Source: Corynebacterium pseudopelargi (lineage in GTDB: Bacteria > Actinomycetota > Actinomycetes > Mycobacteriales > Mycobacteriaceae). Taken from it: DNA of 64,000 bases. Under the pieces are notes generated by a model. The model saw nothing but the letters and a program-made list of their open reading frames with translations, made no database searches and was not told the origin of the DNA. The position numbers and the translations under genes are program-made. The stretch spans positions 868,001 to 932,000 of the forward strand of contig NZ_CP033898.1 in assembly GCF_003814005.1 (NCBI RefSeq), given 5' to 3'. This document shows, one piece after another, positions 1,036 through 62,919 of the stretch (positions within the stretch are counted from its first letter, which is position 1; the number at the start of each line of letters is the position of its first letter).

Positions 1036-3411
1036 TTATGGGTGAATTGGCGTTGCCTCAAGCTTCCATACCTCGCGGGCATAGTCGTTGATGGTGCGAT
1101 CAGAAGAGAAGCGACCAGACTCGCAAATATTGATCCAGCACTTCCTGGCCCAAGCAAGGGTATCTGCGTAATCTTCGGCCATGCGGTCGCGAGTTTCGCG
1201 ATAAGACTCGAAATCACCCAACACGTAGTACACATCCGGGGTTTCCCAGCCATTGCCGTCGAGCAAGGAGCCGCGCAGGTCATGGAACCAACCTGAGCCG
1301 TTGTCGTTGAGGGTGCCGTCTACAAGCGCGTCGAGTGCACGCTTGAGGCCCGGCACAGTCTCATAGACCGACTGCGGGTTGTAGTGCGCCTTGAGCTCGG
1401 GAAGCTGCTCAACCTTTGCGCCAAAGATATAGGCGTTTTCTTCGCCAACGGAATCGACGATCTCCACATTCGCACCGTCGAGGGTGCCAAGTGTCAGCGC
1501 GCCGTTCATCATGAACTTCATATTTGAAGTGCCCGATGCTTCCTTACCGGCAGTGGAGATCTGCTCGGAAATATCGGTGGCGGGGATGATGTGCTCGGCA
1601 GGCGAAACGTTGTAGTTTTCTACAAACACCACGCGCAGGGTCTTCGACACCTCGGGGTCGTTGTTGACCAAGTTGGCGATCTCGTTGATGAACTTGATCA
1701 CTGCCTTCGCGCGAATATAGCCTGGCGCGGCTTTTGCACCGAAGATGAAGGTGCGAGCAGGGACCGTTTCGCCGTCTTTGATGCGGTAGTACAGATCCAG
1801 AATGTACAAGGCATTGAGCAATTGGCGCTTGTATTCGTGGAGGCGCTTGATCTGGGTATCGAAGATCGAATCGGGATCAACCTCAATGCCGTCGCGCTCT
1901 TGAATCCATTGAGCGAAGTCGCGCTTATTCGCGGCCTTGATCTCCATGAGCTCTTGCATCACGGCGTCGTCTTCGGCGAAGTGGCGCAGCTTTTTCAGCT
2001 CGTCAAGCTCGGTGACCCACGCATCCGAGCCCGCAAGGCGGGTAAGCAATGCGGCCAGGCGTGGGTTGCACATCTTCAGCCAGCGGCGAGGGGTGACACC
2101 ATTGGTTTTGTTATTGAACTTCTCGGGCCAAAGCTCGTGCCATTCTTTGAGCGTGTCTGCCTTGATAATCTCCGTGTGCAACGCAGCCACACCATTGATG
2201 GAGTAGGCGGCGTAGCAAGCGATCCACGCCATGTGCACATTGCCGCCTGATACAGGAGCCATGTACTCGATGCGCTCGTGGTCGAGGCCAAGCTGTGCCA
2301 TCTGCTCGCGGAAACGACGATCAATTTCCTGGGTGATTTCCCAGACGCGGTAGAAAAGCTGCTGGAAGATGGTCACGTTCCACTGCTCGAGGGCCTCGGC
2401 AAGCACGGTGTGGTTGGTATAAGCGAAGGTTTCGCAGGTCACCTTCCACGCATCGTCCCAACTCATGCCGTGGTCGTCGAGAAGCAAGCGCATGAGCTCG
2501 GGAATGGCGAGCACCGGGTGGGTGTCGTTGAGCTGAATGCAGTTGTACTTGGCAAAATCGCGCAGATCATCGTGATGCGCCAAGAAATTGTCGATCATCT
2601 GCTGCAAGGAAGCAGACACAAAGAAGTACTGCTGGCGCACACGCAACACCTTGCCGGCGTAGGTGGTGTCGTTCGGGTACAGCACGCGGCAGATATCCAT
2701 GACGGCTTCGCGTTCGACAATGGCATCGGTGAAGCGCTGAGAGTTGAAGGCATCATAATCAAACTCAGCCATCGGCTCGGCCTTCCACAGACGAAGGGTG
2801 CCAATATTGTCGGTGCCGTAGCCGGTAATGGGCATGTCATAAGGAGTCGCGCGCACGGTCATGTCATCGAAACGAACGATGCGCTGCTCATTGTCGCGGC
2901 GGATAGTAAAGGGGTAGCCGTCTTCGCGCCACGCATCTGGCTCCTCAGACTGGAAGCCCTCGTTAAAGGTTTGCTTAAACAACCCGTAGCGATACAGCAG
3001 GCCATAGCCGGTCACGGGGTAGTTTTGGGTAGCGCATGAATCAAGGAAGCACGCAGCCAAACGGCCCAGGCCACCATTGCCAAGGGCAGCATCGTTTTCG
3101 GCCTCGAGGACGTCGGAAAGCTCATGGCCTTGCGCCTTTACTGCCTCGGCCACCTCTTCTTCGATCTCGAGGTTGGTGAGGTTATTCAGCAACGCCCTAC
3201 CCATGAGGAACTCTGCAGAAAGGTAGTGCTGCTGGCGGGTGGCGTTATACGCCTTGGTGGTTTCGGCCCAATTTTCTGCGAGCGAATCCATCACAGCCCC
3301 GGAGAGCCCGAACCAGAATTTACGATCAGTGGCCTCTTCTGGCGCGGTACCCGAAGCGCTGCGAACAAAGCTCGCGATGCGCTGCGTCAGATCGGATGAG
3401 GAATCCCTCAT
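1036..3411 (-). CDS. glgP: Glycogen/maltodextrin phosphorylase
   Basis: Cleaves alpha-1,4-glucan ends with phosphate to release glucose-1-phosphate, a PLP enzyme of glycogen breakdown. At 791 residues it has the normal family length. The PLP signature EASGTSNMKFMMNGAL followed by GTLDGANVEI is intact, with the Schiff-base lysine near residue 630. The N-terminal motifs YLSAEFLMGR and ALGNGGLGRLAACFLDS are also present. The ATG start is preceded by AAGGAG at a good distance. A TAGCAT -10-like hexamer lies at 3452-3457 on this strand. It is the last of three minus-strand genes, but gaps and its own promoter suggest separate transcription. Confidence 0.96.
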   Translation of the reverse strand: MRDSSSDLTQRIASFVRSASGTAPEEATDRKFWFGLSGAVMDSLAENWAETTKAYNATRQQHYLSAEFLMGRALLNNLTNLEIEEEVAEAVKAQGHELSDVLEAENDAALGNGGLGRLAACFLDSCATQNYPVTGYGLLYRYGLFKQTFNEGFQSEEPDAWREDGYPFTIRRDNEQRIVRFDDMTVRATPYDMPITGYGTDNIGTLRLWKAEPMAEFDYDAFNSQRFTDAIVEREAVMDICRVLYPNDTTYAGKVLRVRQQYFFVSASLQQMIDNFLAHHDDLRDFAKYNCIQLNDTHPVLAIPELMRLLLDDHGMSWDDAWKVTCETFAYTNHTVLAEALEQWNVTIFQQLFYRVWEITQEIDRRFREQMAQLGLDHERIEYMAPVSGGNVHMAWIACYAAYSINGVAALHTEIIKADTLKEWHELWPEKFNNKTNGVTPRRWLKMCNPRLAALLTRLAGSDAWVTELDELKKLRHFAEDDAVMQELMEIKAANKRDFAQWIQERDGIEVDPDSIFDTQIKRLHEYKRQLLNALYILDLYYRIKDGETVPARTFIFGAKAAPGYIRAKAVIKFINEIANLVNNDPEVSKTLRVVFVENYNVSPAEHIIPATDISEQISTAGKEASGTSNMKFMMNGALTLGTLDGANVEIVDSVGEENAYIFGAKVEQLPELKAHYNPQSVYETVPGLKRALDALVDGTLNDNGSGWFHDLRGSLLDGNGWETPDVYYVLGDFESYRETRDRMAEDYADTLAWARKCWINICESGRFSSDRTINDYAREVWKLEATPIHP

Positions 3412-3485
3412 ATATTTCTCCTTGAATCTTCAACAATGCAAAACACGCCTCATGCTACCGGGGAAACAGCGATATTTCCCCAGGA

Positions 3486-3496
3486 GCTTTTCGACG
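3486..3496 (-). repeat. CGTCGANAAGC motif, intergenic copy upstream of glgP
   Basis: Exact copy with N = A, between the stop of the M20 hydrolase gene and glgP. It is one of 27 copies listed in the findings. Confidence 0.75.
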
Positions 3497-3505
3497 CGCC
3501 GCATC

Positions 3506-4735
3506 TCATTGTTTACGTTGCAAATACGTCATTGCCGCCACCACTGCAGCTTTGGTAGCCGCCTCGATGGTCGGTTCATAATCCGGCAAGAAATTCGCCA
3601 TGTGATTCACCGGCACCATCTCGCCAATAGCGCCGGCCTCTTCAGCTTGTTGCCACAACTGCCTCGGCGTGCAGCCAAGGGTCCAATACAGATAGGGAGC
3701 ACCAAAGGCCGCGGGAATGTTGGCGAAATCTTCCGATGCAGTCCAACGATTCGCCGTGCGTGACTCACCACCAAAAATGGCATCGAAATTCGCGCGCACT
3801 CGTGCAAAAACGTGCGGATCATTATTGGTTAAAGGCCCGTGTGCGAAATAGCGAAACGTGGGTGGATGACAGCCCGATGCGGAGCATTCCCCTCGCACCA
3901 CTCGCTCAATAGCCGCATAGAGGCGTGCCTTTACTTCCTCGGAATAGGTGCGGCAATTCACCACGATGCGTGCCGAGCCAGGGATGGTGTTATTGGTATG
4001 TCCCGATTCCAAGGTGCCCACAGAGATCACGGCAAAATCAGAAGGCGCGATCTCCCTGCCCACGATGCCTTGGAGACGCACCACCACCATCGCCGCGGCA
4101 TACGTCGGGTCAATGGAATTGTGCGGCATAGAGCCGTGAGCACTTTTGCCCTTGATGATGATTTCAATCGAGTCGCAGGCAGCAGCGGCCGCACCAGGCA
4201 TAGAAAGCACACGCCCGGCAGGGCCTGCCACGATGTGCTGACCCAAGCACACCGTTGGCGTGGGGATTTTGGCACTGAGACCATCGGCCACCATGATCTG
4301 CGCGCCCGCACCATTTTCTTCTGAAGGTTGGAACAGGGCGATATAGGTGCCTGACCACAGATCGCGGTGTTCGTCGAAAAGCGAAAGAGCACTTAAAAGC
4401 GCCGTGGTATGCATGTCGTGGCCACAAGCATGCATCTTGCCTTTGATCTGCGAGGCGTAGGGGGCACCTGAATCCTCGGTCACGGGAAGGGCATCGAAAT
4501 CTGCACGCATCAACACATTCGGGCCTTCGCCATTGCGCATTACAGCTACGATGCCGTACCCACCGATGGGGCTGATCACCTCGCAGTCGAAGGCTTCAAG
4601 GGCGCGAAGAATTTTCTGAGCCGTCAGCCGCTCCTCACCTGAAAGCTCGGGGGCGCGGTGCATTGATGTATAAAATTCGAATTGCCAGGGCTGGTTTTTA
4701 TAACCACTCAGCATCCTCGTGATGCTGTTACTCAC
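3506..4735 (-). CDS. M20 family metallopeptidase / amidohydrolase
   Basis: Predicted cytoplasmic di-metal amidohydrolase of the M20 (hippurate / N-acyl amino acid hydrolase) group, 409 residues. Metal-ligand motifs are visible: HACGHDMHTTALL (Cys-Gly-His-Asp-x-His) and FQPSEENGAGA, preceded by the RADFDALP strand. MHRAPELSGEE near the N-terminus is also typical of these amidohydrolases. The start is GTG with GAGGTGA upstream. The exact substrate cannot be read from sequence; N-acetyl- or other N-acylated amino acids, or related amides, are the usual ones. It lies 46 bp downstream of the GalT-like gene on the same strand and could be co-transcribed with it. Confidence 0.88.
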   Translation of the reverse strand: MSNSITRMLSGYKNQPWQFEFYTSMHRAPELSGEERLTAQKILRALEAFDCEVISPIGGYGIVAVMRNGEGPNVLMRADFDALPVTEDSGAPYASQIKGKMHACGHDMHTTALLSALSLFDEHRDLWSGTYIALFQPSEENGAGAQIMVADGLSAKIPTPTVCLGQHIVAGPAGRVLSMPGAAAAACDSIEIIIKGKSAHGSMPHNSIDPTYAAAMVVVRLQGIVGREIAPSDFAVISVGTLESGHTNNTIPGSARIVVNCRTYSEEVKARLYAAIERVVRGECSASGCHPPTFRYFAHGPLTNNDPHVFARVRANFDAIFGGESRTANRWTASEDFANIPAAFGAPYLYWTLGCTPRQLWQQAEEAGAIGEMVPVNHMANFLPDYEPTIEAATKAAVVAAMTYLQRKQ

Positions 4736-4781
4736 AGATTCACCTCAAAAACAATCATGATCGACGTAACATGCATCAACG

Positions 4782-6095: not shown

Positions 6096-6102
6096 GCAAT
6101 CA

Positions 6103-6114
6103 AGCGTATACCCT
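6103..6114. promoter_or_regulatory. Overlapping divergent leaderless promoters
   Basis: Plus-strand -10 TACCCT (6109-6114) lies six bases before ATG 6121. Minus-strand -10 TACGCT (6108-6103) lies seven bases before ATG 6095. The two hexamers abut around GTATA, so both promoters fit in a 25-bp gap. Inferred from sequence only. Confidence 0.55.
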
Positions 6115-6528: not shown

Positions 6529-7574
6529 GCTACCTCGCGGCCGGCTTCGCGTAATTGCGTTTCCGGCTCACCTTCGCCGAGGGTGATCTGCCAGGCGTTT
6601 GCTTCGGCGTCGTGGCGCCCGGCCACGATAGCGACGGGGGTTGTTCCTGCCATCTCAAGGACCGTGCCAACGACCTTGCCGTGCAAAGATTGCGCATCGA
6701 AGCGACCCTCGCCGCTGATGATTAAATCTGCTTCCATGTCCTCTAATCCAGCAGCCGAAGCGATCACTTTCGCGCCGGGCAGGAGCTGCACCTGGGGTTG
6801 GCCGTGAAGCAGCGCTGAGAGCCAAGTAATGCCAATGGCCAACCCGCCGGCGGCTCCCATTCCGGGTGTTGTCGGATCTACTCCGGTGACTTGGCACAGT
6901 CGTGCGAGGCCTGCATCAAGCTTTTCGACGTCCTGAGGCGAAGCCCCTTTCTGTGGTCCGAACACTGCCGCTGCCCCCTCTGGGCCGGTGGCCGGATTGT
7001 CAACGTCGCTAAGCAGCACCCACTGCACGCTCGCTGCAGGGATATTCAGCATGGCGGTATCGATGTGATCCAGGTGCGCAAGACCTCCGCCGCCTTGGGC
7101 AATGGTGTGTCCTTGGGCATCGAGCAAGTTTGCACCTAGGGCGACTAAGATGCCGCTTCCGCCATCAACTGTCGCGGTGCCACCGAGGCCGAGCACGATG
7201 GTGCGGGCGCCGCGGGTTTGGGCGTCGGCGATGAGCACGCCTGTGCCGTAGGTGTCGGCGATAAGGGGACGTGGGGCGTCGATAAGCGTGATGCCAGAAG
7301 CCGCGGCAACGTCGATATATGCGGTGGCGGTGGATTCATCAAAGCGGTAGCTCGCCTCGATGAGTCGGCCGAGCGCATCGGTTGTGGGGAGAGTCACATC
7401 AACACCTGTAAAGCGGGCGGCGGTGCCTTCGCCACCATCGGCCATGGGGGCTAAAACGATCTCGCAGTCGAGCACCTCTTGGACTCCTTCGGCGAGCCAT
7501 TGTGCAGCTTGATCGGCATTGGCGGTGCCTTTAAAGGAGTCTGGGGCGATGATGATCTTGGCGGGGGAATTCAT
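6492..7574 (-). CDS. glxK: Glycerate kinase
   Basis: Phosphorylates D-glycerate with ATP, feeding glyoxylate/glycerate into glycolysis. The protein is 360 residues, normal for the GarK/GlxK family. Visible signatures are IIAPDSFKGTANADQAA at the N-terminus, APMADGGEGTA, and GLGGTATVDGGSGIL, with PGMGAAGGLA later. The start chosen is ATG 7574 (MNSPAKIIIAPDSFKG); an upstream in-frame extension of 16 codons lacks conservation signs. It is divergent from gdhA and overlaps the small plus-strand gene tail to tail by 37 bp. No terminator is visible. Confidence 0.93.
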   Translation of the reverse strand: MNSPAKIIIAPDSFKGTANADQAAQWLAEGVQEVLDCEIVLAPMADGGEGTAARFTGVDVTLPTTDALGRLIEASYRFDESTATAYIDVAAASGITLIDAPRPLIADTYGTGVLIADAQTRGARTIVLGLGGTATVDGGSGILVALGANLLDAQGHTIAQGGGGLAHLDHIDTAMLNIPAASVQWVLLSDVDNPATGPEGAAAVFGPQKGASPQDVEKLDAGLARLCQVTGVDPTTPGMGAAGGLAIGITWLSALLHGQPQVQLLPGAKVIASAAGLEDMEADLIISGEGRFDAQSLHGKVVGTVLEMAGTTPVAIVAGRHDAEANAWQITLGEGEPETQLREAGREVAQRFASMFKNQG

Positions 7575-10530: not shown

Positions 10531-11538
10531 GTGTTTCACCTTCGAGCAAAAAGCCTTGCGGGGGTCATGCTTTTAGCCTGCACGGCCTTGTTACATCCCT
10601 CCGTGGCATCAGCGCAAAACGCTGAGGCTGAAGTGGCCGCGTGGACCGGCATGGACGCGCCCATGGCTGCAAGCAAGACGTTGCCAGGGGCGGCGCTGCG
10701 GGCGTCGACAAGCCCCTATGCCAGCCCGATGGGCGCAAATCATGACTGTGAAACCACGTCAGACGAGCCGCCGGTGGTGCTCATTCACGGCATGACCTCA
10801 AATTCCTATGCCTCCTTCGGCGCCATCGCTCCGGCGTTGGCGGCGCAGGGCAAGTGCGTGTTTGCGCTGAACTATGGCTACTACGGCACAGACGCTGTCG
10901 CTGGATCCTCGGTGGCAGGCTCATTGCCGGGATTTTTTGGGCTTGGCCCGATGCAAGCTTCGCTTGAAGAGATCAACGGGCAGGTTGCTCAGATCAAGGC
11001 GCACACCGGAGCCGAAAAAGTAGACCTGGTGGGCTGGTCTGAAGGTGGGGCACTGGCCGCGGCGTATGCAAAGCAAGACAAGGGCGATGTGCGTACTGTC
11101 GTGTCGATTGCAGGGGTGCTAAGAGGCACTACGGTGCTTGGCATCTCAAACCTGCTAGCACGTGGCGATGCGATGGGAATGGATACCGGGCGAGTTATTT
11201 CTGCAGGTCTTGGCCCAGCAGGCAATGATCTGTTAGAAGAATCTGCCTTTATGACTGCCCTGAAAGAAGGCGGTATCGAGGTGCCGGGCGTGCGATATGT
11301 TGCGATTTCTACCCTGTACGACGAAGCGGCAACCCCGCTCAGCGCGACGCAATTCAATGGGGGAGAGTATCGAAATATCGTGGTCCAACACGAATGCCCT
11401 CAAGATCGCGTTGATCATCTTGGCATGCCGTATGATCCGCGAACCATCGCCTTTGTTGCAGAGGCTTTAGGCGTTCCCGTGACGGTGCCGTGTGTAAAAA
11501 ATGTCGGTCCTGCTGCAGGTTTGAGGCAACCGGCCTAG
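10531..11538 (+). CDS. Secreted alpha/beta-hydrolase lipase/esterase, copy 2
   Basis: 335-residue paralogue of the preceding lipase. It starts at GTG after AAAGGAG. The signal peptide MFHLRAKSLAGVMLLACTAL ends near VASAQ. Conserved elements are VVLIHGMTSNSYASFGAIAP, nucleophile VGWSEGGALAA (Ser near 170), TLYDEAATPLSATQFN and QDRVDHLGMPYD. The nucleophile elbow differs from copy 1 (Glu for Ala after Ser). It carries one CGTCGACAAGC copy at 10703-10713. Substrate preference cannot be read; exported lipases of this family act on host or medium acylglycerols. No clear terminator follows. Confidence 0.87.
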   Translation: MFHLRAKSLAGVMLLACTALLHPSVASAQNAEAEVAAWTGMDAPMAASKTLPGAALRASTSPYASPMGANHDCETTSDEPPVVLIHGMTSNSYASFGAIAPALAAQGKCVFALNYGYYGTDAVAGSSVAGSLPGFFGLGPMQASLEEINGQVAQIKAHTGAEKVDLVGWSEGGALAAAYAKQDKGDVRTVVSIAGVLRGTTVLGISNLLARGDAMGMDTGRVISAGLGPAGNDLLEESAFMTALKEGGIEVPGVRYVAISTLYDEAATPLSATQFNGGEYRNIVVQHECPQDRVDHLGMPYDPRTIAFVAEALGVPVTVPCVKNVGPAAGLRQPA

Positions 11539-11625: not shown

Positions 11626-12735
11626 GTGGGGAAATTCAAGCACCAGCAACACAGCAGCGCAGGAGACTTCCAGCGCCGAATCAACGAACTCAATATCGAA
11701 TTCTGGATCGCACAGCACCCTGAAGATGCCGCCGATTTTCATACGCAGCTCGACCGGATAGCCGGTGAGATGAATATCAGCCGCCATGATGTCAGGATCG
11801 GTATGCGTATCGGGGTGCTGCTTCGCAGGTTTGCGCAGTTCGCGCAGTGTATTCGCGATCACGGCTATCACGTGAACATGGCAAAGCTCAGCACCGTGGA
11901 ACAGCACGTAGTCGCGATCCAGCCCGAACACGAGCCTCAAGTCGAGCAATTCCTGATCGAATACTTCACGCCAACCGTCGATGATGAAGTCCTGCCGCAG
12001 CCAGCAACGATTGCAAAGCATCTAAGAAGCTTTATCGCCACCATCGATGAGCAAGCCGCGAAATCGCCACGAGGTAACCAACAACGTCGGGCCCGCTTCA
12101 TTAGAAACCACAACGGCACCACCCGTTTTAGTGCCAACCTTTCCGATGTTGAAGCCGCGAAGCTCCAAGCCGTGCTGAAAAAGGAACAACGTGAGGGCAT
12201 GGAACTTGTCGATGCGTTTGCCAAAGCCCTCGACTCGCGCACCATAACCAAGGTTCACCTGCACCTTTTCAAAGACCAAGCCGGCATTTATCACCTGCTT
12301 GGCTCTGGGCCGCTTTTCGACGCCCCCGCGCTCGTAGCCAAAGCAACCCCGAGCGAAATCGACGCGAGTGCTTCTACTGCCGAATACAGGCCCACGCCAG
12401 AGATCAGAAAAATGGTGCAGCTTCTCGACGGTACCTGCCGCTACCCAGGCTGCTCGCGGCCCGCACAGGAATGCGACCTTGACCACGTGATTAATTATGA
12501 CGAAGGTGGCCCGACCGAACCTTCGAATCTTGCATGCCTCTGCCGCTTCCATCACACGATGAAAACCTCAGGCAGGGTTCACTACACACTGCATAAAGAC
12601 CGCACAATCACCTGGTATTTCGGCGAAAATACTAAAACCACCAAGCCGCACGGTGAAGCAATTCCTCGGGCAATGTTTTCCCAAACGTGGGCTGAACACG
12701 AAAACAAGCGCATCAAGCTCCGCCGATCCGCCTAG
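11626..12735 (+). CDS. DUF222 / HNH endonuclease signature protein (13E12-like)
   Basis: 369-residue protein of the family common in multiple copies in actinobacterial genomes. The C-terminus holds the HNH nuclease: CRYPGCSRPAQECDLDHV, then NLACLCRFHH, with zinc-type Cys pairs. The N-terminal two thirds is the DUF222-type helical region (QQRRARFIRNHNGTTRFSANLS, AKLQAVLKKEQREG). The start is GTG with GGGGAGGGG before it. It carries two CGTCGANAAGC copies (12312, 12420). Family members resemble repeat or mobile-associated ORFs, but no ends, target duplication or partner genes are visible, so it is treated as a stand-alone gene. Confidence 0.85.
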   Translation: MGKFKHQQHSSAGDFQRRINELNIEFWIAQHPEDAADFHTQLDRIAGEMNISRHDVRIGMRIGVLLRRFAQFAQCIRDHGYHVNMAKLSTVEQHVVAIQPEHEPQVEQFLIEYFTPTVDDEVLPQPATIAKHLRSFIATIDEQAAKSPRGNQQRRARFIRNHNGTTRFSANLSDVEAAKLQAVLKKEQREGMELVDAFAKALDSRTITKVHLHLFKDQAGIYHLLGSGPLFDAPALVAKATPSEIDASASTAEYRPTPEIRKMVQLLDGTCRYPGCSRPAQECDLDHVINYDEGGPTEPSNLACLCRFHHTMKTSGRVHYTLHKDRTITWYFGENTKTTKPHGEAIPRAMFSQTWAEHENKRIKLRRSA

Positions 12736-14019: not shown

Positions 14020-14777
14020 GCAGAAGGCGTCGAAAAGCTGCTGTTGAGGTCATGCACTTCGGCGACCTCGACTATGCGCCCTTGCTAGAGGCATTTGGGG
14101 TTGAGATTCCTGATGAGCTGCTCAATTTGGCGCTCACGCACCGTTCTTACGCCAACGAGAAGGGCTTTTTGCCCAACAATGAGCGCCTGGAGTTCCTCGG
14201 CGATGCGGTGCTGGGGCTTTCTGTGGCCGGCAGGCTTTTCGACGTCTACCCCTCGCGTCCGGAAAGTGATATTTCCAAGATGCGGGCCAGCATCGTGAGC
14301 CGCTATGCATTAGCGGAGGTGGCCAAAGAGATCGGGCTTGGTCAATATGTGCTGCTAGGCCGCGGTGAATTGCTCACTGGTGGCCGGGAAAAAGACTCAA
14401 TTTTGGCTGACACGATGGAAGCCATGCTGGGTGCGATTTATCGTGAGCATGGCTTTGAGGTGGCTCGTGAATCGGTGCTTCGTTTGTTCGAGTCGCGAAT
14501 TCAGCATGCCACTGCCGCGGATCGTCATTTGGATTGGAAGACTTCGCTGCAGGAGCGTCTGGCTGAGCTGAAGTTCCCTGTGGCTCGTTATGTCGCTGAG
14601 GTGGAAGGGCCTGATCACGAGCAGCAATTCACCTCGACGGTGATGGTTGCTGAGCATGCTTTGGGTCAGGGGCGTGGTCGAGCCAAGAAGTTTGCAGAGC
14701 AAGAGGCTGCGCGGTTGGCGGTTGAGGCGCTGGAGTCTGTGGAGCGCCAGCAAGAGATCGCGCGTTCTTTGTCTTAG
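14016..14777 (+). CDS. rnc: Ribonuclease III
   Basis: Cleaves double-stranded RNA in rRNA and mRNA maturation. 253 residues. The signature NERLEFLGDAVL is at about 55-66, with further catalytic acids in DTMEAMLGAIY. The C-terminal dsRNA-binding domain (about 178-246) ends with GRGRAKKFAEQEAARLAVEAL. The GTG start overlaps the TGA of the previous gene (GTGA), implying translational coupling; ATG 14052 is an alternative. Two CGTCGAAAAGC copies in opposite orientation (14028 and 14234) lie in its first 230 bp. Confidence 0.95.
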   Translation: MSRRRRKAAVEVMHFGDLDYAPLLEAFGVEIPDELLNLALTHRSYANEKGFLPNNERLEFLGDAVLGLSVAGRLFDVYPSRPESDISKMRASIVSRYALAEVAKEIGLGQYVLLGRGELLTGGREKDSILADTMEAMLGAIYREHGFEVARESVLRLFESRIQHATAADRHLDWKTSLQERLAELKFPVARYVAEVEGPDHEQQFTSTVMVAEHALGQGRGRAKKFAEQEAARLAVEALESVERQQEIARSLS

Positions 14778-16667: not shown

Positions 16668-19600
16668 GTGTATTTGAAGTCGCTGACGTTAAAGGGTTTT
16701 AAGTCCTTCGCGTCGGCGACTTCTTTGAAGTTTGAGCCTGGGATCTGTGCAGTCGTAGGCCCGAATGGTTCGGGCAAGTCGAATGTGGTGGATGCGCTTG
16801 CCTGGGTGATGGGGGAGCAGGGGGCGAAGACGCTTCGCGGCGGGAAGATGGAAGACGTGATCTTCGCGGGTGCGGGGCAGCGTAAGCCTTTGGGGCGCGC
16901 CGAGGTCACGTTAACTATCGACAATGCCGATGGCGCTTTGCCCATCGAATACTCCGAGGTTTCGGTAACGCGCCGGATGTTCCGTGATGGCGCCAGCGAG
17001 TACGAGATTAATGGCCAGCGTGCTCGTTTGATGGATATCCAGGAGCTTTTGTCGGATTCTGGCATTGGCCGCGAGATGCACGTCATTGTTGGCCAGGGTC
17101 GGCTCGCGCAGATTTTGGAGTCGCGGCCGGAGGATCGCCGTGCCTTTATCGAGGAAGCCGCTGGGGTGCTCAAGCATAAGCGTCGAAAAGAAAAAGCTCA
17201 GCGCAAGCTCACTGGCATGCAGGCGAATCTGGATCGTCTGCAGGATCTGACTGAGGAGTTGAAAAAGCAGTTAAAGCCTTTGGCTCGTCAGGCAAAGGCG
17301 GCAAAGCGCGCTGCCACGGTCCAGGCTGATCTGCGCGAGTCTCGTTTGCGTTTAGCAGGCCATACGCTTTCGCAGCTTCACCTCGCCCACGAAACCCATG
17401 CCCAAGCCTTCAGTCAAGCAAGTGAGCTTCATGGCTCATTGCAGCACGATTTTCAGGTGGCGCAGGAATCCTTGCAGGAGGCTGAGGCTGCACTTTCTCG
17501 TACGCAACCTGAGGCTCAAGCAGCCCAGCGCCTCTGGTTTGATCTTTCGGCGTTAAGTGAGCGCATTGCGGCTACGTCTCGGGTGGCAAATGAGCGCGCT
17601 GAGCATTTTCAGCCCACGCCGTTTCCTGGTGAGGATCCCGCAAGTTTGCTCTCGCGGGCAGAGCATGCCGAGGCTGAACTAGGGCAGCTCAGCACGGCTG
17701 CGGAAATCGCCGCAGAGCGTCTCGATTCGATCCGTGAGGAGGTTGAGGAGCGCGCCGAGGCGGCGGCTGAAGCTGAGCGGGAGCACATGGCGCAGGTCCG
17801 TGCCATCGCTGATCACCGCGAGGGCGTGGTGCGTTTATTGGCGGCTCAGGAATCCACCGAGCAGCAATTGCAGGCAGCGCTTGCCGAGTCCCAGCGTTTG
17901 CATGAGCATCTAGCGGAGCAGCGTCGGCAATTGCACGCGGCTTCAGAAGAGCTTGAATTAAGCCAGCGCGATGCCCAGCAGCATTCCTTGGAACCTTTGC
18001 AAGAAGCTGCCGATGCCAGCGCTGTGGAGGCCGCTGCTGCGGAGGAGCGTCTGGAGCAGCTACGTGATCGTCGTGGAGCTTTAGAGCGCACGATCTCGAA
18101 GCTGGAATCACGCATTGAAACCCTCGAGGCCAATGCTCCGAAGCCTGGTGTGGAGGGCGATTTTGCTCCGCTGGCAAAGTTTCTTCGTGCTCAACCTGAG
18201 GCTCAGGTGGCGCTTTCTGCAGCTCTTGGCGCTTTTGCCCAGGCGGTGGTGGGCGACCCTTCTGCGCACTCTTGGGAAGATGTGGCGCGCACTGTGGTGG
18301 TGGAGCAAGGCCAGGGCGAGGCGTGGAGCCTTGATGTGGATTTGCCGCCCTATGCCTCTTGGCTCACAGATCATGTGCAGGTGGATGGGTCTGTTTCTTT
18401 GGCGGTTTATCGCTTGCTTGCCGACGTCGCGCTTTGCCCTTCCACCGACAAAGCCCAAGCCCTGGTGGCTGAAGATCCGCGTGTTCGCGCAGTAACCAAT
18501 GATGGCGTGCTGGTGGGGCAGGGCTGGATTGCGCTTGGCCGGGGTGAAAGGACCGCCCTCGATGTTGCTGCGCAGGTGGATCAAGCTCGCGAGGAATTGG
18601 CCAGTGCTGCTGAAGAGCTTGAGTCTTTATCGGGTGTGTTTGCTGGCGCAAAGCAGGCGGCAGAAGAATCTCGGGTGGCGCAGGCAAAAGCGCAAGTGGC
18701 GCTCAAAGAAGCGGCGCAGCGTGATCGCGCCCTGCAACAGCAGCAGGAACAATTAAGCTCCAGGCAGCAGGTGCTCCAACAGCAGGTGGAACGCACGCAG
18801 CAGCAGGTTGTGGCTGCCGAGGAGCGCATGAAAGATCTTGAGGCTCAAAAGGCTGCTACTGCGGATCGTTTATCGCGCGTTGAGGATGTTGAAGATGAGC
18901 CTTCGACTGAGGCTCGTGATGAGGCATCGGCGGCGCTGGCGCAGATTCGGGCCATGGAGATGGAGGCTCGTTTAAATGTTCGTGGCGCGCAGGACCGTGT
19001 AGAGCAGGCCAAGGCGAGTGCGGCGGGGTTGCGTCGAAAAGCAAGCTTTGCCCAACAAGCCAAGCAGCAGCATGAACGCGAGCAACATAAACGAGCCCAA
19101 CGCGCGCAGTTGGCCAAGACGGTGGCCGATTTAGCGGCTGAGATTGCTCAACGCACCGCCAAGGCCTTAGAAAAGGCCGCCAATAAACGCAGCGAATTGC
19201 AGCAGTTGCTTGAGGTGCACAAGGCCGCAGAGCAAAAGGCGCGGCGCGATGTTGAGGCGATTCGCCAGCGTGTCGAGCGTGCAGCGCAGCAACGCCACGA
19301 GGCTGAATTGGCGGTGGGGCAGGCTAGGGTTCGTTTGGAAGAAGCCCAACTGAAGTTGAGTGAGCAAACTGGTGTGCCGGCCCAGAACATCATCGAAGAT
19401 TTTGCTCCCGAGGAAGATTTCGATGTTGAGCAGGAGCGGGCGCGCCTTCAGCAGGCAGAGCGCGATCTGCGATCCTTGGGCAAAATCAACCCCTTGGCGC
19501 TTGAAGAATATAAGGCTTTGGAAGAACGCTATGAGTTCTTATCCACCCAATTGGCTGATGTGGAGCAGGCCCGTAAGGATTTGCGCGGGGTAATCCACGA

Positions 19601-20137: not shown

Positions 20138-23100
20138 ATGGGCGATGTAGGCCATCCGATTGCTGATCTCAACGACTCTTTGCTGGGTTGGGCTTCTCAA
20201 ACTGAGCTGGAGTTGTCCCAGCAACTTGGCGAATGTTCCATCGTTGCCGATCTCGACTTGGCCAGCGATGAACTCGAGCGCATCGAAAGGCTGTATGGCA
20301 TTTTCCTCTCGCGCCAGCTCGCCGCCGGAGCAAGCCTTGCGCCCCTGTTGCTCATCAGCCCTGCTTTGACCCTTTGCACGCTGGTAGACCGTGCTTTTAA
20401 GCTTGTCGACGCCCCCCGCTTCGCCCAGGAATACACCGCAGGCTTAGGCATTGATGCAACCATTGATCTGCCAACGCTTCTGCCACAATTGCTTGAAAAA
20501 TTCGGCTTTGCATCCCTTGATGTAGATCCAGTGGAGCTGTTGTGTTTGCACGCCGGCATCATCCGCAATGATGTGCCAGGTGTGCTCGAGGCACTCGACT
20601 TTGATCGCGACTTGCCTGCCCTTGTGCAGTTAGCGCAAAAAGAGATGCCAGAGGTGGCTCAAAGGATCCTCAGTGGTGTGCAGGCGCTGCGCGAATTTGC
20701 CATCGCTCATCCCCATTCCTGGTTTGATCGTGACCGCTCCTCATTGCCTGCGCTGCCTGCTGCACTTGCAGAGGCTCTTGCAGCAGAGCTGCGCGAGCGT
20801 CCCATTGGTACCGAGGATCGCGATTCGGTGGTGGGCGTGGCTAATCGCGAGATGCGTCCGCGCATCCTCTTTGATACCCAGCGCAATAAAGTGTGCCTGC
20901 GATTGCCGGAACAGCGCGTGCCGCGGCATGCCGATGGCAGCTTCGGTGAGGTGAATTGGCGTGTGAGCATGGAGGGCACCACCAAGGTCTATCGCACGGC
21001 AAACCCCTGGCACACAGCCAGTGGCTATGCCGAAACCCTTGATGTGAGCATCGACCATCCTGTCCGCGAAGTGACGGTGCAGGATTTGTCTAATGGTATT
21101 ACGTGGACGGTGCCGGTACTTGGCGAGGACGCCGCGTTAGTCTTTAGCGCCCGCGGGGCCAATATGAGCGATAAGGCTTCGCTGCACTATGCCACGATGC
21201 TGGTGGTGGCCCCAAGCGATGCGGTGGTCAGTGACGTGGTGCACGGACGAGAGCTCGAAGCCGATAGCACTTTTGGCGTGCAGTGGGAGGGATGGACTGT
21301 GCGAAGCTTCGATCTCTCACAGGCCTCCTCGCTTGCGGTGACCCAAGCCGGTGAGACGCCGAGGATGGAGCGGGTGCGCAGCGTGGATACGCGCCAACGC
21401 GTGCGCTTTATTGCGCCTGAACCTTTCGACTTTCTCAAATCGGCCTCTGGTTTGGCCGTGCACAACGCCTCCTTGGTGGCCGAATTTCCTCCCACGCCCT
21501 CGGGCCAGGAGGAGGTGTGGCAATTGTCCATTTCTTCCTATGGCGGTGTGGGGCACGCCGGCGAGGAGATCGCAGCGCCTGAAGAGCTCGCCATTCCCGC
21601 CGAAGGTGGAGCATTCGCCGTTTTTGATCCCGAGCTTTACGACGCCCCCTGGGTTGGCGAGTACCTGGTGCGCCTGCGTGGACCGCGCAATGAATCCTTC
21701 CGCCACGAATTTGCCATCGTGGAGGGGCTGCGTGCCTCGATCTCGATGCAGGGCGTGAGCAAGCATCTGCGAATCCCCACCGCTGGTGGTTTGAGCGAAA
21801 CCACGTTGACGGTGAAGTCGGGGGAGAAGCCTTTTGAGGTCAGCCCCCGCCAGATTGAAGTTTCTACCGATCAGCCCAGCGCCCAGTGTGTGATTTCCAC
21901 TGAAGAAGGCGATCAGTTGCCACTTCGCTGCACCCCTTCGCGTTTGGTGTTTGAGCTTCCAACGATTAGCGAACCTGCCATGTGGCGTGCCCGTCGCCTG
22001 CAGTTGGATCCTTCGGATATCGCTATGGATGCCATGCTGCGTGTGCGCGCTGGCGGCAGGATGAAAGATGCAAAGATCACGGTGCGCAACCATCATGGTT
22101 CGCCACTAAAAACTGCACGCCTTGAAAGCGATGATCACATCACTTACTTCGCGCCGCTTGCTTCTTTGGCGGGTCAATCGGCCAAATTGCCCACTGGTCG
22201 TGTGGATTTGGAGTGGACTGATCCAAGTGGTGCAAGGATTTCGGTGGCCATTGCCGATGTGGCGCCCAGGCCACAGCCGGAGGTGCGCTTAGAACAAGCC
22301 ACGCTGTACGCCGATGCTGAGGCTGTGTGGGTTTGGCCTTCGACCGCCCCCTGGGAACCAGCGCGCGCGTTTAGCCTGGAGCAGGGCCAGGTGCAATTGC
22401 CCGAGAATTACATCAATGCTGGCGATTTGTTGGTGCAGCCTTTTGCCATGGACCCCTTCATGACGCTGATCGCGCCAGTCTCGCCCAGCGCCCACGCCCA
22501 GCGCATCGAACAGGACGGCTACTTTTTAAGCGCTGATCCTAAGTTGCAGGAATTGGCGGCGTTTCTCGCCGGCGAGCAGGAACATGCCCCGAGTGACCCG
22601 GCGATCATGCCGGTGTTGTGGGACATGGTTACCACCGGGGTTGCCGTGGGGGAGAGCGCCCGTGGCGTCCGCGAGGTCTTTAGTGCGCATCCTTCGGCGG
22701 CGTTAAGTGGCCTTTCGGCCTCTTTGGTTCCCGCGCACCTGCAGCCAGGGCGTGTGGTGGAATCAGGGTTGGTGCGAGCACGCTTCGGGCTTGCCGACGA
22801 CCTCACGCCGCATCGCGTGCCGTGGATCGGCACCTTGGAACTGCTCGGCTCTTTGGCTGAGGGTCAATCTTCTCGTGCCTTGCTCCAGCAGCTTCGCGCC
22901 CTTGCTGGCGAAAACTTGATCACTGCCCTGCAAACTGCCCGCGACACCACCTTAGATAGTGCGTGCATTGATAAATCAACCGTGGCAATTGCCAGCATGG
23001 ACGCCGCTCAGCAGGAGGCGCTGTTGGAGATGTTCTTCTCGCGTTCGAAGATCGTCCCCGGTTTGCTCATGGACGATGCCACGCGCCTTTTGGCGGTGTT

Positions 23101-26559: not shown

Positions 26560-29021
<2,462 letters not shown>

Positions 29022-30662: not shown

Positions 30663-30694
30663 GGGGCGTCGACAAGCAATTGCGGCGCCCCTTT
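30663..30694 (+). terminator. Probable terminator of ffh
   Basis: GGGGCG (30663-30668) pairs with CGCCCC (30686-30691), then TTT. The stem is short and the loop contains a CGTCGACAAGC motif copy. Confidence 0.5.
30667..30677 (+). repeat. CGTCGANAAGC motif, intergenic, inside ffh terminator hairpin
   Basis: N = C. Lies in the ascending arm and loop of the hairpin downstream of ffh, a placement typical of uptake sequences in other bacteria. Confidence 0.7.
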
Positions 30695-36754: not shown

Positions 36755-36765
36755 CGTCGAAAAGC
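36755..36765 (+). repeat. CGTCGANAAGC motif, 37 bp before lepB start
   Basis: N = A. Located 24 bp upstream of the -10, at exactly the same distance as the copy before map (62909). Confidence 0.75.
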
Positions 36766-37523: not shown

Positions 37524-38168
37524 GTGCGCACGCTGAAGCAATTGCGCACCTTCGATGTTGCGCTAGACAAAGCAGGCCTGGGGCCGGTCGCGGGAGTAGA
37601 CGAAGCCGGCCGGGGAGCATGTTGTGGGCCTATCTCAATCGCCGCCTGCATCCTGCCACCGAAAATCCTGCCCGCCCTGGATGGTCTCACCGACTCCAAA
37701 GCCCTGTCACCTGCGCGCCGCAATACGCTTTTCGACGCCATCCGTACCCACGCACTGGCCTATTCCATCGTGCATATCTCGGCTCAAGACATTGATGCCC
37801 ATGGTATTCAACATGCCAATATCTCAGGCATGCGTCGCGCGGTGGCACAGCTTCACATACGACCCGGCTACGTGCTCAGCGACGCCATGCGGGTCGAAGG
37901 AATGGAAACCGCAATGCTGCCGATGATTGGCGGCGATGCGGCCTCACGCAGCATTGCTGCTGCGAGCGTGTTGGCAAAAGTATCGCGAGATAGGGCGATG
38001 GAGGCGTTAGATCTTCGCTTGCCCAACTATGGATTAGCGGCCCATAAGGGATATGGGACGAAGTCTCATATGGATGCGGTGCGCCGCCACGGTGCAAGCG
38101 AAGAACATCGTTATAGTTATGCCAATGTCCAGGCAGCACATCGCCACTGGCTAGAGCAGAACACCTAA
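37524..38168 (+). CDS. rnhB: Ribonuclease HII
   Basis: Removes ribonucleotides misincorporated in DNA and RNA:DNA hybrids. 214 residues. The catalytic motif GVDEAGRGACCGPI carries Asp26 and Glu27, and LSDAMR carries a further acid. YGLAAHKGYGTKSHMDAV is the C-terminal signature. GTG start directly at the lepB stop. It contains one CGTCGAAAAGC copy (37727) on the opposite strand. Confidence 0.95.
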   Translation: MRTLKQLRTFDVALDKAGLGPVAGVDEAGRGACCGPISIAACILPPKILPALDGLTDSKALSPARRNTLFDAIRTHALAYSIVHISAQDIDAHGIQHANISGMRRAVAQLHIRPGYVLSDAMRVEGMETAMLPMIGGDAASRSIAAASVLAKVSRDRAMEALDLRLPNYGLAAHKGYGTKSHMDAVRRHGASEEHRYSYANVQAAHRHWLEQNT

Positions 38169-41863: not shown

Positions 41864-42766
41864 ATGGGCACCACGCAAATGCTTGAGCTTATCGACGACT
41901 ACGTTGATCATTTGCGCTTTGTGCTTGGTAGATCCGAGGCCACCATTCGTGGCTATCGCTCAGATCTTCGCGCCTTTGCGCACTCGCGGCCAAGCCTTGA
42001 GGCCATGAGCCTGGAAGATTGCCGCGACGCACTCGGCGAGGCGGTAGAGGCGGGGGCTTCGCGAGCCACGCTTGCCCGGCGCACCGCTGCGCTGAAAGGC
42101 TTTAGCGCCTGGCTTTTTGCCCAGGGCTATCTCTCAAGTGATGTTGCTGCACGCCTGCAAGCCCCAAAGGTTGGCAAGCACCTCCCCAAAGTGCTCAATG
42201 AGCACACTGCTGCCGAGGTAGTGCACAAAGAATTAGATGAGGATGCTTCGCCTGCACAACAGGCAGAAGTGCTTCGTGATCTCGCAATCCTTGAGTTGCT
42301 GTATGCCACGGGCATGCGCGTGGCAGAACTCGTTGCTTTGGATATCGCAGATCTTGATCCTGCAACACGCATTGCCAAGGTAACCGGTAAGGGCAATAAA
42401 CAACGCATGGTGCCTTTTGGCACTCAAGCAGCCGCCGCGCTCAAGGCATGGCTTGAGCACGGTCGTGGCCACTTCGCCGGTAATGCAAGCGGCAATGCGC
42501 TCTTTTTAGGCGTTCGTGGCGGCAGGTTAAATGTGCGCCAAGTGCGCAGACTCGTGCAAGCCCAAGGTGATCGCGCCGGGGTGGAAGGCCTCGGGCCACA
42601 CGCCTTGCGCCACAGCGCGGCCACGCACCTGCTTGACCACGGAGCTGATTTACGCGTGGTGCAGGAATTGCTGGGCCATTCCTCTTTGCAAACCACGCAG
42701 ATCTATACCCACGTCAGTACCCAGCGGCTCCAAGAGGCATTCAAGCAGGCGCATCCACGCGCCTAA
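41864..42766 (+). CDS. xerC: Tyrosine recombinase XerC
   Basis: 300-residue site-specific recombinase resolving chromosome dimers at dif. N-terminal SAM-like domain (about 1-100). Catalytic residues: Arg152 (ATGMRVAEL), Lys in VTGKGNKQR, His246 and Arg249 (PHALRHSAATH), His272 (LGHSSLQTTQ) and nucleophile Tyr281 (IYTHVS). It could also start at ATG 41858. No attachment site or phage genes are nearby, and chromosomal XerC beside dprA is the usual actinobacterial arrangement. Confidence 0.95.
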   Translation: MGTTQMLELIDDYVDHLRFVLGRSEATIRGYRSDLRAFAHSRPSLEAMSLEDCRDALGEAVEAGASRATLARRTAALKGFSAWLFAQGYLSSDVAARLQAPKVGKHLPKVLNEHTAAEVVHKELDEDASPAQQAEVLRDLAILELLYATGMRVAELVALDIADLDPATRIAKVTGKGNKQRMVPFGTQAAAALKAWLEHGRGHFAGNASGNALFLGVRGGRLNVRQVRRLVQAQGDRAGVEGLGPHALRHSAATHLLDHGADLRVVQELLGHSSLQTTQIYTHVSTQRLQEAFKQAHPRA

Positions 42767-45641: not shown

Positions 45642-45652
45642 GCTTATCGACG
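45642..45652 (-). repeat. CGTCGANAAGC motif over the addA-like stop codon
   Basis: N = T. Directly follows the tsf terminator and overlaps the stop codon of the minus-strand helicase gene. Confidence 0.65.
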
Positions 45653-52028: not shown

Positions 52029-52039
52029 CGTCGAAAAGC
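52029..52039 (+). repeat. CGTCGANAAGC motif upstream of pyrH
   Basis: N = A. Located 28 bp before a TAAACT -10-like hexamer (52057-52062) of pyrH. Confidence 0.7.
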
Positions 52040-52900: not shown

Positions 52901-52911
52901 GCTTGTCGACG
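52901..52911 (-). repeat. CGTCGANAAGC motif after the pyrH hairpin
   Basis: N = C. Abuts the hairpin in the pyrH-frr gap. Confidence 0.7.
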
Positions 52912-57168: not shown

Positions 57169-58341
57169 ATGCGCACTGTGACTCAGCGGATTCTTATTCT
57201 TGGCAGCACCGGCTCTATAGGCACCCAAGCACTCGACGTCATCGCCGATAATCGCGATCGCTTCGAAGTTGTAGGTCTAGCCGCCGGATCAAATGTGGAA
57301 TTACTGGCCCAACAGGCCAAACAATTTGACCTCTCGGCAGACGTGATCGCCGTAGCAGATGCCGAGGCAGCCAAACGCTTAAGCGATCAGCTTGGCGCGC
57401 CGGTGCGTTCAGGCAAAGACTCCGCAGCCCAACTCGTGCGCGAGGTGGCAGCCGATACCGTGTTAAATGCCCTGGTTGGCTCCATGGGCCTTGATGCCAC
57501 CATGGCCACCATCGAGGCCGGGGAGATACTTGCGCTGGCCAATAAAGAATCGCTTGTTGCCGGTGGCCAATTGGTTATGGCGGCTGCCAAACCGGGCCAA
57601 ATCGTCCCCGTGGACTCAGAACACACTGCCATGGCGCAATCGCTTCGTGCCGGTGAGCGCCAGGAAGTGGACCGCTTTGTGCTCACCGCCTCCGGCGGGC
57701 CATTTCGTGGTTGGACGCGCGAGCAAATGTGGAACGTGACCCCGAAGCAGGCAGCCCAGCACCCCACCTGGTCTATGGGGCAAATGAACACGCTGAACTC
57801 CGCCACATTGGTCAATAAAGGCCTCGAATTGGTTGAGGCAACTTTGCTATTCGACGTTCCCGCCGATCAGATCGACGTGGTAGTACACCCGCAGTCCATC
57901 GTGCACTCCATGATTACCTTCTGCGATGGCGCAACCATCGCCCAGGCCTCGCCACCTTCGATGAAGATGCCCATCGCCCACGCACTGGCGTGGCCAAAGC
58001 GCGTGCCACACGCCCAAGCCTCCTTAGACTTCGGCCAGGCCTCCACCTGGGAATTCTTCCCAGTCGAACCACAATTTGAGGCTATCCCGCTGGCTCGGGC
58101 GTCAGCAGCGGCAGGCGGTAGCTATTCGGCGGTATATAACGCGGCAAATGAACAGGCTGCCGAGGCGTTTTTGCAAGGGCGCATCCGATTCCCGCAAATC
58201 GTCGATACCATTGCCGAGGTGCTCGACGGTGCGAGTGACTTTGCAGGCTCGGTGAGCAGCATCGCGGAAGTGCTTGAACACGAGCGCGAAGCGCGCAGGC
58301 GTGCGAACGTGGTCGTCGAAAAGCTAGCTGGCCTAAGCTAG
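57169..58341 (+). CDS. dxr: 1-deoxy-D-xylulose-5-phosphate reductoisomerase
   Basis: Second step of the MEP isoprenoid pathway, NADPH dependent. 390 residues. N-terminal [16 protein letters not shown] binds [27 protein letters not shown] (metal/substrate) and [15 protein letters not shown] are substrate-site signatures; [15 protein letters not shown] is also conserved. ATG 57169 is used; GTG 57178 is an alternative. It starts the dxr-rip-ispG-PBP-map block found in mycobacteria and corynebacteria. A CGTCGAAAAGC copy lies at its 3' end (58314). Confidence 0.97.
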
Positions 58342-58379
58342 AGGCCTTCTGAGCCTGGATGAATACATAAGGAGAATCA

Positions 58380-59594: not shown

Positions 59595-59805
59595 CAGATC
59601 TTTGGATAAAACCCCTGCGCGACTGTTTGGATAATTCGCCTGCGCGCCCATTGTGCGCGAGGCGATACAGCCGCTACCTCAGCCAAGGCCATCAGCGGTG
59701 CTAGACTGCTACAACGATTCCTGCACCACATTAAAACCCGCCAGCAGGCTTAAGGCCAGCAAACCTCGTGCCTTATCACCTGCTGGATCAGCAAGGAGCA
59801 AACTT

Positions 59806-60981: not shown

Positions 60982-61032
60982 ATTTTTCTGTGGGCATTGG
61001 TGTTGCACCGTCGATCTTTGTATCGGCGGTGT

Positions 61033-61038
61033 TAGCCT
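61033..61038 (+). promoter_or_regulatory. -10 element (TAGCCT) of the PBP gene, leaderless
   Basis: TAGCCT ends seven bases before ATG 61046. Confidence 0.55.
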
Positions 61039-61045
61039 TTTTCGC

Positions 61046-62908
61046 ATGAAAAAACCCTGGCAGCGAGCACTTGCAACCACAGTCATCGCCAGCATGACCG
61101 TCTCGCTTGCCGCGTGCACTCCCAAACCCGCCTCGGCAAAACCAGTGGTTGAGGAATTCCTCGAAGAACTCAGTAACCAACAATTCCAGCAGGCAGCGGC
61201 GCTTTCCGACGATCCCGGCGCCGCAGAGACCTTAGAGCAATCCTGGAAAGGCTTACAGGCCGAAGGGATAGAGGCCGAGCTTGTCGACGTCGACTTAAAC
61301 GACTCCATCGCCACCGCGAAAGTGCGTTACCACTGGGATCTGCCAAGGGATCGCGATTTTGTCTACGAATCCGACATGACGCTCAATCGCATCAATGATC
61401 ATTGGTCGATTCGTTGGCAGCCTGCCGCTCTGCACCCGAAGCTGGGGGCTAATCAGCACTTGGAACTTCGGGCCGTGAATGCCGAAAAGGCCAGCGTTGT
61501 TTCCTCCGATGGCGCGGATGTATTGGTGCCAGGCACCGTCTACCGGGTGCTGATTGAGCCGGATCAATTAAGCGATGCTGGCACTATTGCCCGAAGCCTG
61601 GTAGCTCAACTACAAGCTGCCCACGGTTTTGACGAGACGGTGCAGGTGCCCGACTTGAAGGAATTAGAAAAGACCATCAAGGACGCCACCAGCACCTATT
61701 CGGTGACCACCTTGAGCAAAGAAACCGGCGAGCGGCTGAAAGACTCGCTGGAGGCTTTACCTGGGGTTCGGATGAACCCCGAGGCGGCCATGGTGAATAC
61801 CGACCCGAATTTTGCTCCCGATGTGGTGGCCAGGGTTACCTCTTTGATCTCCGATGATTTAGAAGGCCAAAACGGTTGGAAAGTAGCTGCGGTGACCTCC
61901 GATGGGGCAGAGCTTGAGCAGCTTGAATACCACGCCCCAGATCCTGCTCCTTCCGTGGAAATCAGCCTGGATCACTACGTGCAGCGTGCAGCCGAAGAGG
62001 CAGTGAATCTTCGCGCGGATAAAAAGGCCGTGCTTGTAGCCGTGCGGCCTTCAACCGGCCAGATCTTGGCTATTGCCCAGACTGATAAGGCCGATGAAGA
62101 CGGCGATATTGCTCTTACCGGCATGTATCCGCCCGGATCTACGTTTAAGATCATCACCGCATCGGCGGGAATTGAAGATCAAGACCTCAATCCCGGCAGC
62201 ATCGTGCCATGCCCAGGCAGCATGAATATCTATGGGCGCGTGGTGAATAACTACAACGGTTTTTCTTTGGGCAACGTCCCACTCCAACAAGCCTTTGCCA
62301 GGTCGTGTAACACCACCTTTGCCGATATCTCCACCAAATTGCATCCAGGCCAGCTTGAAGATGTAGGAAAAGAGTTCGGCATCGGCGTTGATTACGACAT
62401 CCCTGGCATCGCTACTGTCACCGGGGATATTCCCCACGGCGATACTGAGCTTTCACGCACCGAAGCAGGCTATGGCCAAGGTGAAGTGCTGGTGAGTCCT
62501 TTCGGTTTGGCCATGGTTTCAGCCACCGCGGCTGCCGGGCACACCCCGGTGCCAACGCTGATCTCAAGCCGCGAAACCAAAGTAGAAGGAGACTCGCGAA
62601 GCCCCGAGCCGAAGACCGTTGAGCAATTACGCGACTTGATGGCGGCGGTTACCGCCGGCGGCGGTACGGCTGCAGGCATGAGCCAACAAGGCGGCAAAAT
62701 TTTTGCCAAGACCGGTGAGGCGGAAATTAATAACGGCTCCCATGCCTGGTTTACCGGCTACCGCGAAGACGACATTGCCTTTGCCACCCTGGTCGTGCTC
62801 GGTGGCGGATCAGAAACAGCAGTGGCTGTTACAGATAAGTTCTTTAACACCCTCGATGAATTGCGCAGTGGGGGATCGCTGCCGCCTGAGCCTCAACCAC
62901 AACCCTAA
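61046..62908 (+). CDS. Penicillin-binding lipoprotein with transpeptidase domain
   Basis: 620 residues. A signal peptide with lipobox SLAAC anchors the protein. N-terminal NTF2-like MecA_N region (about 30-150), a PBP dimerisation region, and a transpeptidase domain with SxxK in PPGSTFKII (Ser near 365), SxN in RSCNTTF, and KTG in FAKTGEAE. The order rip-ispG-PBP-map matches Rv2864c. It probably cross-links peptidoglycan; beta-lactam target. A Pro/Gln tail ends it. Leaderless start predicted. Confidence 0.93.
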
Positions 62909-62919
62909 CGTCGAAAAGC
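62909..62919 (+). repeat. CGTCGANAAGC motif, 37 bp before map start
   Basis: N = A. It starts one base after the PBP stop and lies at the same distance to the start codon as the copy before lepB. Confidence 0.75.

Follow-up and report, generated by a model that had tools for sequence, protein, structure and literature searches.

A candidate DNA uptake sequence with dialects across the genus Corynebacterium

An earlier note on a 64,000-nucleotide stretch of the Corynebacterium pseudopelargi chromosome (NZ_CP033898.1, positions 868,001 to 932,000; hereafter the window) pointed to a strongly over-represented word, CGTCGANAAGC, and to its resemblance to uptake sequences. We analysed this word, named dialect 1 (D1), in the whole genome (G000) and across the genus. 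We consider it likely that CGTCGANAAGC is a DNA uptake sequence, i.e. a tag of self-DNA, which would represent one dialect of a genus-wide system and be read by a Tad/Com transformation machine. The resemblance noted earlier thus gave the best-fitting reading, because the word has many copies on both strands without skew, is selected at the level of DNA, is enriched between genes, belongs to one genus, has dialects, is scarce in phages and is accompanied by conserved ComEC and TadA-type genes. Features of an uptake sequence that were found are over-representation, absence of replichore skew, DNA-level selection, lineage dialects and machinery genes; genomes lacking the motif have these genes too.

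Enrichment of the motif and selection on the DNA

The window holds 27 exact copies of CGTCGANAAGC (12 on the forward and 15 on the reverse strand), compared with 0.15 expected, and none of 100 shuffles reached 27. The 27 coordinates, strand split and chance expectation given earlier were all reproduced. The genome of 2,348,160 bases (contigs of 2,345,052 and 3,108) carries 615 copies (300 forward, 315 reverse), whereas the reversed pattern, used as a control, occurs 32 times (14 forward, 18 reverse). The first 100 forward copies span 734 kb, which is close to the average density. The 3,108-base contig has no D1 copy, compared with 0.8 expected at the density of the genome. This contig (C2, L028) is plasmid-like, and parts of it resemble small plasmids from Austwickia, Rothia and others (∼66–84% match).

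Further analyses used a 463-kb sample of G000, made up of the window, 19 spread 20-kb stretches and one 19-kb locus. This sample contains 137 D1 copies, and Markov models of order 1 to 5 predict 1.0, 1.1, 1.6, 2.7 and 3.3, so that the frequency in this sample is far from the expectation even at order 5, the comparison that the earlier note had proposed. Selection acts on the DNA and not on the protein, in agreement with that note: when synonymous codons were shuffled among all genes, with every protein preserved, called genes held a mean of 2.6 and a maximum of 8 copies in 200 shuffles, compared with 100 observed, and the enrichment is not confined to codon-pair effects. Copies are also over-represented between genes (35/137 by midpoint, or 25.5%, compared with 15.4% of bases; P = 0.002; 404 genes called); intergenic status here and in the window rests on our own simple gene caller.

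Among the 102 coding copies, 65 lie antisense in a single frame, xxG-CTT-NTC-GAC-Gxx (Leu-[Phe/Ile/Leu/Val]-Asp), and the other 37 are spread over four further frame/strand classes. The earlier claim that several reading frames are used therefore stands, with five classes occupied, but their use is very unequal. In the context G-Leu-NTC-GAC-G, CTT encodes the leucine in 65 of 72 instances, compared with 2266 of 12949 leucine codons overall. Exact copies greatly outnumber single-base variants in the sample, where the sixth base accounts for 54 variants in all and any other position for at most 16. In the window, each variant occurs 0–2 times at nine of the ten fixed positions, as had been described, but the sixth base is more permissive (A to C, G or T: 3, 7 and 2 copies).

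The flanks were read from 34 fully intergenic copies, which have no codon effects. The five upstream bases are G in 47–64% of these, A occupies the N position in 22, and T follows the motif in 70%, giving a consensus of roughly GGGGNCGTCGAAAAGCTA. The G-rich 5′ flank and the T at +11 thus persist outside genes. A three-base rhythm in the G-rich flank had been considered part of the motif and was set aside, as it is now thought to be largely codon-position bias. Spacing between copies is near random (coefficient of variation 0.85), without strong clustering.

Since whole-genome totals would cancel a leading-strand skew, chromosome halves were compared; dnaA lies at C1:487-972, which places the start of the chromosome contig at dnaA. 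In a 444-kb sample including the window, forward and reverse copies numbered 42 and 51 in the first half and 19 and 20 in the second (Fisher P = 0.85). Grouping by the sign of GC skew gave 41/51 and 20/20 (P = 0.58). No replichore strand skew of D1 was found in either sampled half, a balanced use that favours uptake over a Chi site in the terms of the earlier note. Copies are also retained between close relatives: two genomes 98.5% identical over 100 kb (G061 and G062) share 41 of 41 D1 copies, whereas random or permuted 10-base words are kept at 88–89% (0.89^41 = 0.008).

All copies in the window are exact matches, with N being A in 13, C in 7, G in 4 and T in 3, as reported earlier. The form CGTCGAAAAGC occurs on the forward strand at 4372..4382, 14028..14038, 19032..19042, 26934..26944, 36755..36765, 52029..52039, 58314..58324 and 62909..62919, and on the reverse strand at 3486..3496, 6920..6930, 12312..12322, 14234..14244 and 37727..37737. 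CGTCGACAAGC is found at 10703..10713 and 30667..30677 (forward) and at 20401..20411, 26784..26794, 28934..28944, 52901..52911 and 61279..61289 (reverse). CGTCGAGAAGC lies at 2475..2485 (forward) and at 12420..12430, 27479..27489 and 30279..30289 (reverse), and CGTCGATAAGC at 7277..7287 (forward) and at 41887..41897 and 45642..45652 (reverse). Seven copies are fully intergenic (those starting at 3486, 10703, 14028, 30667, 36755, 52029 and 52901), the same number as counted before.

Distribution over the genus and dialects

Comparison with related genomes, another check proposed earlier, showed a motif that occurs widely within the genus and is specific to it. At least 150 D1 copies are present in 160 of 242 congeners (median 585 among these, maximum 1533), 15 have 61–144 and 67 have fewer than 60; the reversed-pattern control never exceeded 36. 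Sampling of 140 genomes from 30 further genera of the family revealed no comparable load: the highest counts were 147 (5.5 Mb) and 145 (4.5 Mb), i.e. at most ∼32 per Mb compared with 262 in G000. A record of Corynebacterium sp. S30M_Sa_12 has 10 D1 copies in 21 kb. Four phages of the genus, totalling 180 kb and with hosts that may be of any dialect, contain 5 copies of D1, 2 of dialect 2 and 1 of dialect 3 (both described below).

De novo word counts in 60–112 kb samples from 19 genomes, our own window included, recovered a dialect 2 (D2) word, CATCGNCAAGC, from two genomes, G001 and G107, and a word related to it from G097. A dialect 3 (D3) word, CGRCGTCATNA, emerged in G012. D2 was then counted in 80 whole genomes, comprising 78 of the 82 congeners with fewer than 150 D1 copies together with G000 and G002. 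It reaches 307–754 copies, balanced between strands, in 14 of these, and 57–115 in another four (G028, G032, G156 and G185); all others have at most 44, including 32 in G000 and 13 in G002. These 14 congeners are poor in D1 and bear a second dialect. Of 70 genomes searched for D3, G012 has 591 copies (292 + 299) and none of the remaining 69 exceeds 60. We count at least two, probably three, dialects. One genome, G024, carries both 117 D1 and 487 D2 copies and is a possible intermediate of a dialect switch.

D1 and D2 have the letters C-x-TCG-x-x-AAGC in common; D3 shares CGTC and less. In a HolA tree, a single branch with support 100/100 holds the seven sampled D2 genomes (of 14) together with the motif-poor G043, and a DegV tree unites six sampled D2 genomes with G043 (99/96). 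The difference between D1 and D2 therefore looks like one shift, judged from these gene trees. Within the D2 lineage the motif seems to have been lost in G043, and perhaps it was lost among D1 genomes too (G132, which is weakly placed in the ComEC tree).

The 82 D1-poor congeners include 67 that could not be typed: 49 with none of the three words, 14 with weak D1 (61–144 copies) and four with weak D2 (57–115). Four of the 67 (G058, G168, G203 and G204) lay outside the D2 search and one (G204) outside the D3 search. Untyped genomes may take up DNA unselectively or use undetected words. Several further words were considered and rejected as dialects. The CGANCGCG word of G043 owes much of its count to a single gene with tandem repeats; in that genome (L045, L135-L138 or L209) we saw a gene-like stretch whose tandem GACGACCAGAACGACGATCGC units mimic an over-represented word. 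Words in G054, G121, G206, G216, G232 and G032 look like coding periodicity, weak CGTCGNNAA-like words in G007, G088 and G202 are at noise level, and the counts for G008, G011 and G132 gave nothing convincing. Separately, G029 (L163-L165, L043 or L208) has a 31-bp word, GGTTCGACACAAAAATCCCCTGGTATACTCC, in 12 copies identical over its length, which looks like a CRISPR or other interspersed repeat unrelated to the motif.

Uptake machinery, proposed mechanism and rival explanations

Profile matches place ComEC in 241 of 242 genomes of the genus, a T2SSE/TadA-type ATPase in 239 (235 over the cut-off; one match in G000) and a prepilin peptidase in 79 of 80 (77 over the cut-off). A correlation of the motif with any single machine was discarded, as these near-universal genes do not separate motif-rich from motif-poor genomes. 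The comEA–comEC pair was present in all 20 com loci viewed, and HolA was recovered in 19. Beside comEA–comEC–holA in G000 lie a Cas3 gene and a Cas5-type gene downstream and a phage-type integrase upstream (L191:9912-12522, L191:1482-2612).

Twenty tad loci (L031-L050) were compared, ten picked as D1-rich (G024 among these proved to be mainly D2) and ten as D1-poor. All contain TadA, a large gene on the opposite strand and a small gene after it; between them lie TadB/TadC-, DUF4244- and TadE-type open reading frames (ORFs), single genes being missed by the ORF picker in some loci. In G000, hidden Markov model matches identify T2SSF (TadB and TadC), DUF4244 and an Rv3654c-family TadE-like protein. 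No Pfam match was obtained for the first TadE-like protein of G000 or for the gene before tadA, which is presumably ssd. The Flp pilin family PF04964 gave one weak match in 242 genomes, below the cut-off; the pilin-like gene of G000 is DUF4244. In G000 the large opposite-strand gene encodes a DEAD helicase that has MrfA and HRQ1 domains, and the small gene a cold-shock protein; such neighbours would suit a pilus whose role is related to DNA.

From these observations we infer three things: uptake involves reading of the motif, the Tad pilus of this genus acts in uptake, and a drive maintains the copies. A candidate surface DNA receptor of the competence machine would bind the 10-bp motif on DNA released by close relatives, perhaps helped by the G-rich 5′ flank and the T/A 3′ flank. 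A Tad/Flp-type pilus and ComEA would then bring the DNA in, one strand would enter the cell through ComEC, and the homologous stretch would be replaced by recombination. Because tagged alleles would be taken up preferentially, copies are predicted to accumulate where coding permits, on both strands and in both replichores, until mutation balances uptake. A change in receptor specificity would slowly rewrite the genome to a new dialect.

Several observations weigh against this uptake model. In a second pair of genomes (G015 and G016, 95.0% identical over 56 kb), 10 of 12 copies were kept compared with 66% (P = 0.17), which is not significant alone. A sizeable part of the genus, 67 of 242 congeners, is untyped; ComEC occurs in 66 of the 67 and a T2SSE match likewise in 66, which means that presence of the machine is no predictor of the motif. 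In trees of ComEC and of ComEA, the D2 genomes are not grouped together. At orthologous codons, D1 and D2 sites coincide in 40 of 435 cases compared with 0.13%, but this is weak evidence and was not used as proof, given that D2 genomes have a full site at 24 of 96 Leu-x-Asp tripeptides in any case. The kinship of D3 to the other two is less sure, because it shares fewer letters and none of its positions coincides with D1 or D2 sites (0/62 and 0/31). Columns diagnostic of D1 or D2 were sought in proteins of the tad and com loci (8–9 D1 and 6–7 D2 rows; the HolA row was left out because of stray sequences): there were none in DUF4244, TadE1, TadE2 or ComEA, which lends no support to Tad pilins or ComEA as the receptor, and 0 to 4 in the other proteins of these loci. 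Inverted pairs are rare (the 137 sites include three pairs within 150 bp, one being at 30 bp), and the frequent inverted-pair terminators that are common, if not defining, in uptake sequences were not seen at these sites. Finally, our literature search found no uptake or competence data for Corynebacterium. It also found no report of an uptake sequence in the genus, in a literature from which subscription journals and preprints were mostly not covered; among the matches listed for the motif letters, none had degenerate spellings and none named Corynebacterium in the title.

Two alternatives raised earlier, a site for a nucleoid protein and a Chi-like element, fared worse than uptake. If a nucleoid or condensin-loading protein bound the motif every ∼3–4 kb to shape or segregate the chromosome, copies would be expected, as found, in every sampled stretch, in both orientations and without strong clustering. 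We nevertheless regard this as unlikely, since 10-bp stringency is unusual for an abundant nucleoid protein, spacing is near random instead of regular, 49 congeners gave no signal for any of the three words, and a change of dialect, which this explanation does not predict, would require both the protein and hundreds of sites to alter without the self-reinforcing drive of uptake. A Chi-like recombination hot spot, at which a break-processing helicase-nuclease (AdnAB or another, for want of RecBCD) would stop and RecA loading begin, would account for hundreds of dispersed copies of an asymmetric motif that is frequent on chromosomes and rare in the four phages. It is quite unlikely given the lack of leading-strand skew in either chromosome half, the intergenic enrichment and within-genus dialects that it would not lead one to expect, and ten fixed bases where known Chi sites have five to eight. 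Moreover, the RecC family (PF04257) was detected in an E. coli control and in none of 242 genomes; AdnAB was not searched for. FtsK-orienting sites (KOPS) were rejected because strong skew towards the terminus is absent in the sampled halves. Restriction sites are depleted or neutral and usually 4–8 bp, and a restriction-modification target was rejected given strong enrichment in place of depletion.

The antisense placement of 74 of the 102 coding sites would suit an element acting on RNA or transcription (a processing, pausing or termination signal, GCUUNUCGACG). This is very improbable, as 28 coding sites are sense, the bias largely reflects the one permissive Leu-x-Asp frame, and the 35 intergenic sites have mixed orientations (12 in the same and 7 in the opposite direction to tandem genes, 11 convergent, 3 divergent and 2 at stretch ends). 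The dominance of that frame is also what a codon-pair or peptide effect would produce, but such an effect, or a dispersed mobile repeat, is scarcely credible when synonymous shuffling removes nearly all coding copies, intergenic copies are enriched and only a short flank bias is shared beyond the motif.

We therefore favour a DNA uptake sequence. Its fuller form is somewhat more probable than its negation: an independently evolved self-DNA code in a Gram-positive genus that bears mycolates, with two dialects at least and probably a third, for which a Tad/Flp-pilus machine with a putative receptor would be the reader. Most species would be naturally transformable now or recently, and the dialects would act as barriers to gene exchange. 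To our knowledge, sequence-specific DNA uptake has been described in Pasteurellaceae and Neisseriaceae alone, apart from the methylation-based choice made by Campylobacter, and D1 would be the first uptake sequence outside the systems of these two families. If true, this would be a third, independent case, in Actinomycetota, implying that self-DNA codes evolve repeatedly. Natural transformation, of which our literature search found no report for the genus, would also be predicted for these commensals, pathogens and species used in industry, and the dialect would mark which species exchange genes. Receptor-site coevolution becomes testable through a switch of dialect within a single genus.

Comparison with known systems

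Chi sites and KOPS are, like D1, short, dispersed and asymmetric chromosomal words. Both are strand-skewed by replichore, whereas D1 is not in the sampled halves, and RecC is absent. The uptake signal sequence (USS) of Haemophilus has a core of ∼9–10 bp, softer flanks and unequal use of coding frames, and D1 resembles this Pasteurellaceae system in all three respects. The flanks differ, being G-rich 5′ and T/A 3′ here and A/T tracts in the USS. USS pairs often form terminators (PMC5217627), in contrast to the few inverted pairs found here. The same paper, a 2017 survey of spaced motifs, reports CRISPR-related words for three Corynebacterium genomes.

The DNA uptake sequences (DUS) of Neisseriaceae, whose receptor is ComP, are likewise asymmetric words of ∼10 bp with very many copies, kept within lineages and varying as dialects that follow phylogeny (PMC3630211). 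The D1 sequence is unrelated to these, its median of 585 copies in the 160 motif-rich genomes compares with ∼1900 for the meningococcal 10-mer, and inverted pairs are few. The pilus is of Tad type here and type IVa there. Function is proven in Neisseriaceae and predicted here, where 67 of 242 genomes are untyped.

A parallel in machinery is Micrococcus luteus, an actinobacterium with comEA/comEC, tadA–tadB–tadC and small pilins, as in G000. Two tad loci are needed there, compared with the single T2SSE match in G000, and the wording 'uptake sequence' is absent from that paper (PMC4322843). Deletion of tad genes in M. luteus is reported to abolish transformation, with tadB deletion leaving a little, and the authors describe tad together with comEA/comEC as frequent in actinobacteria (PMC4322843).

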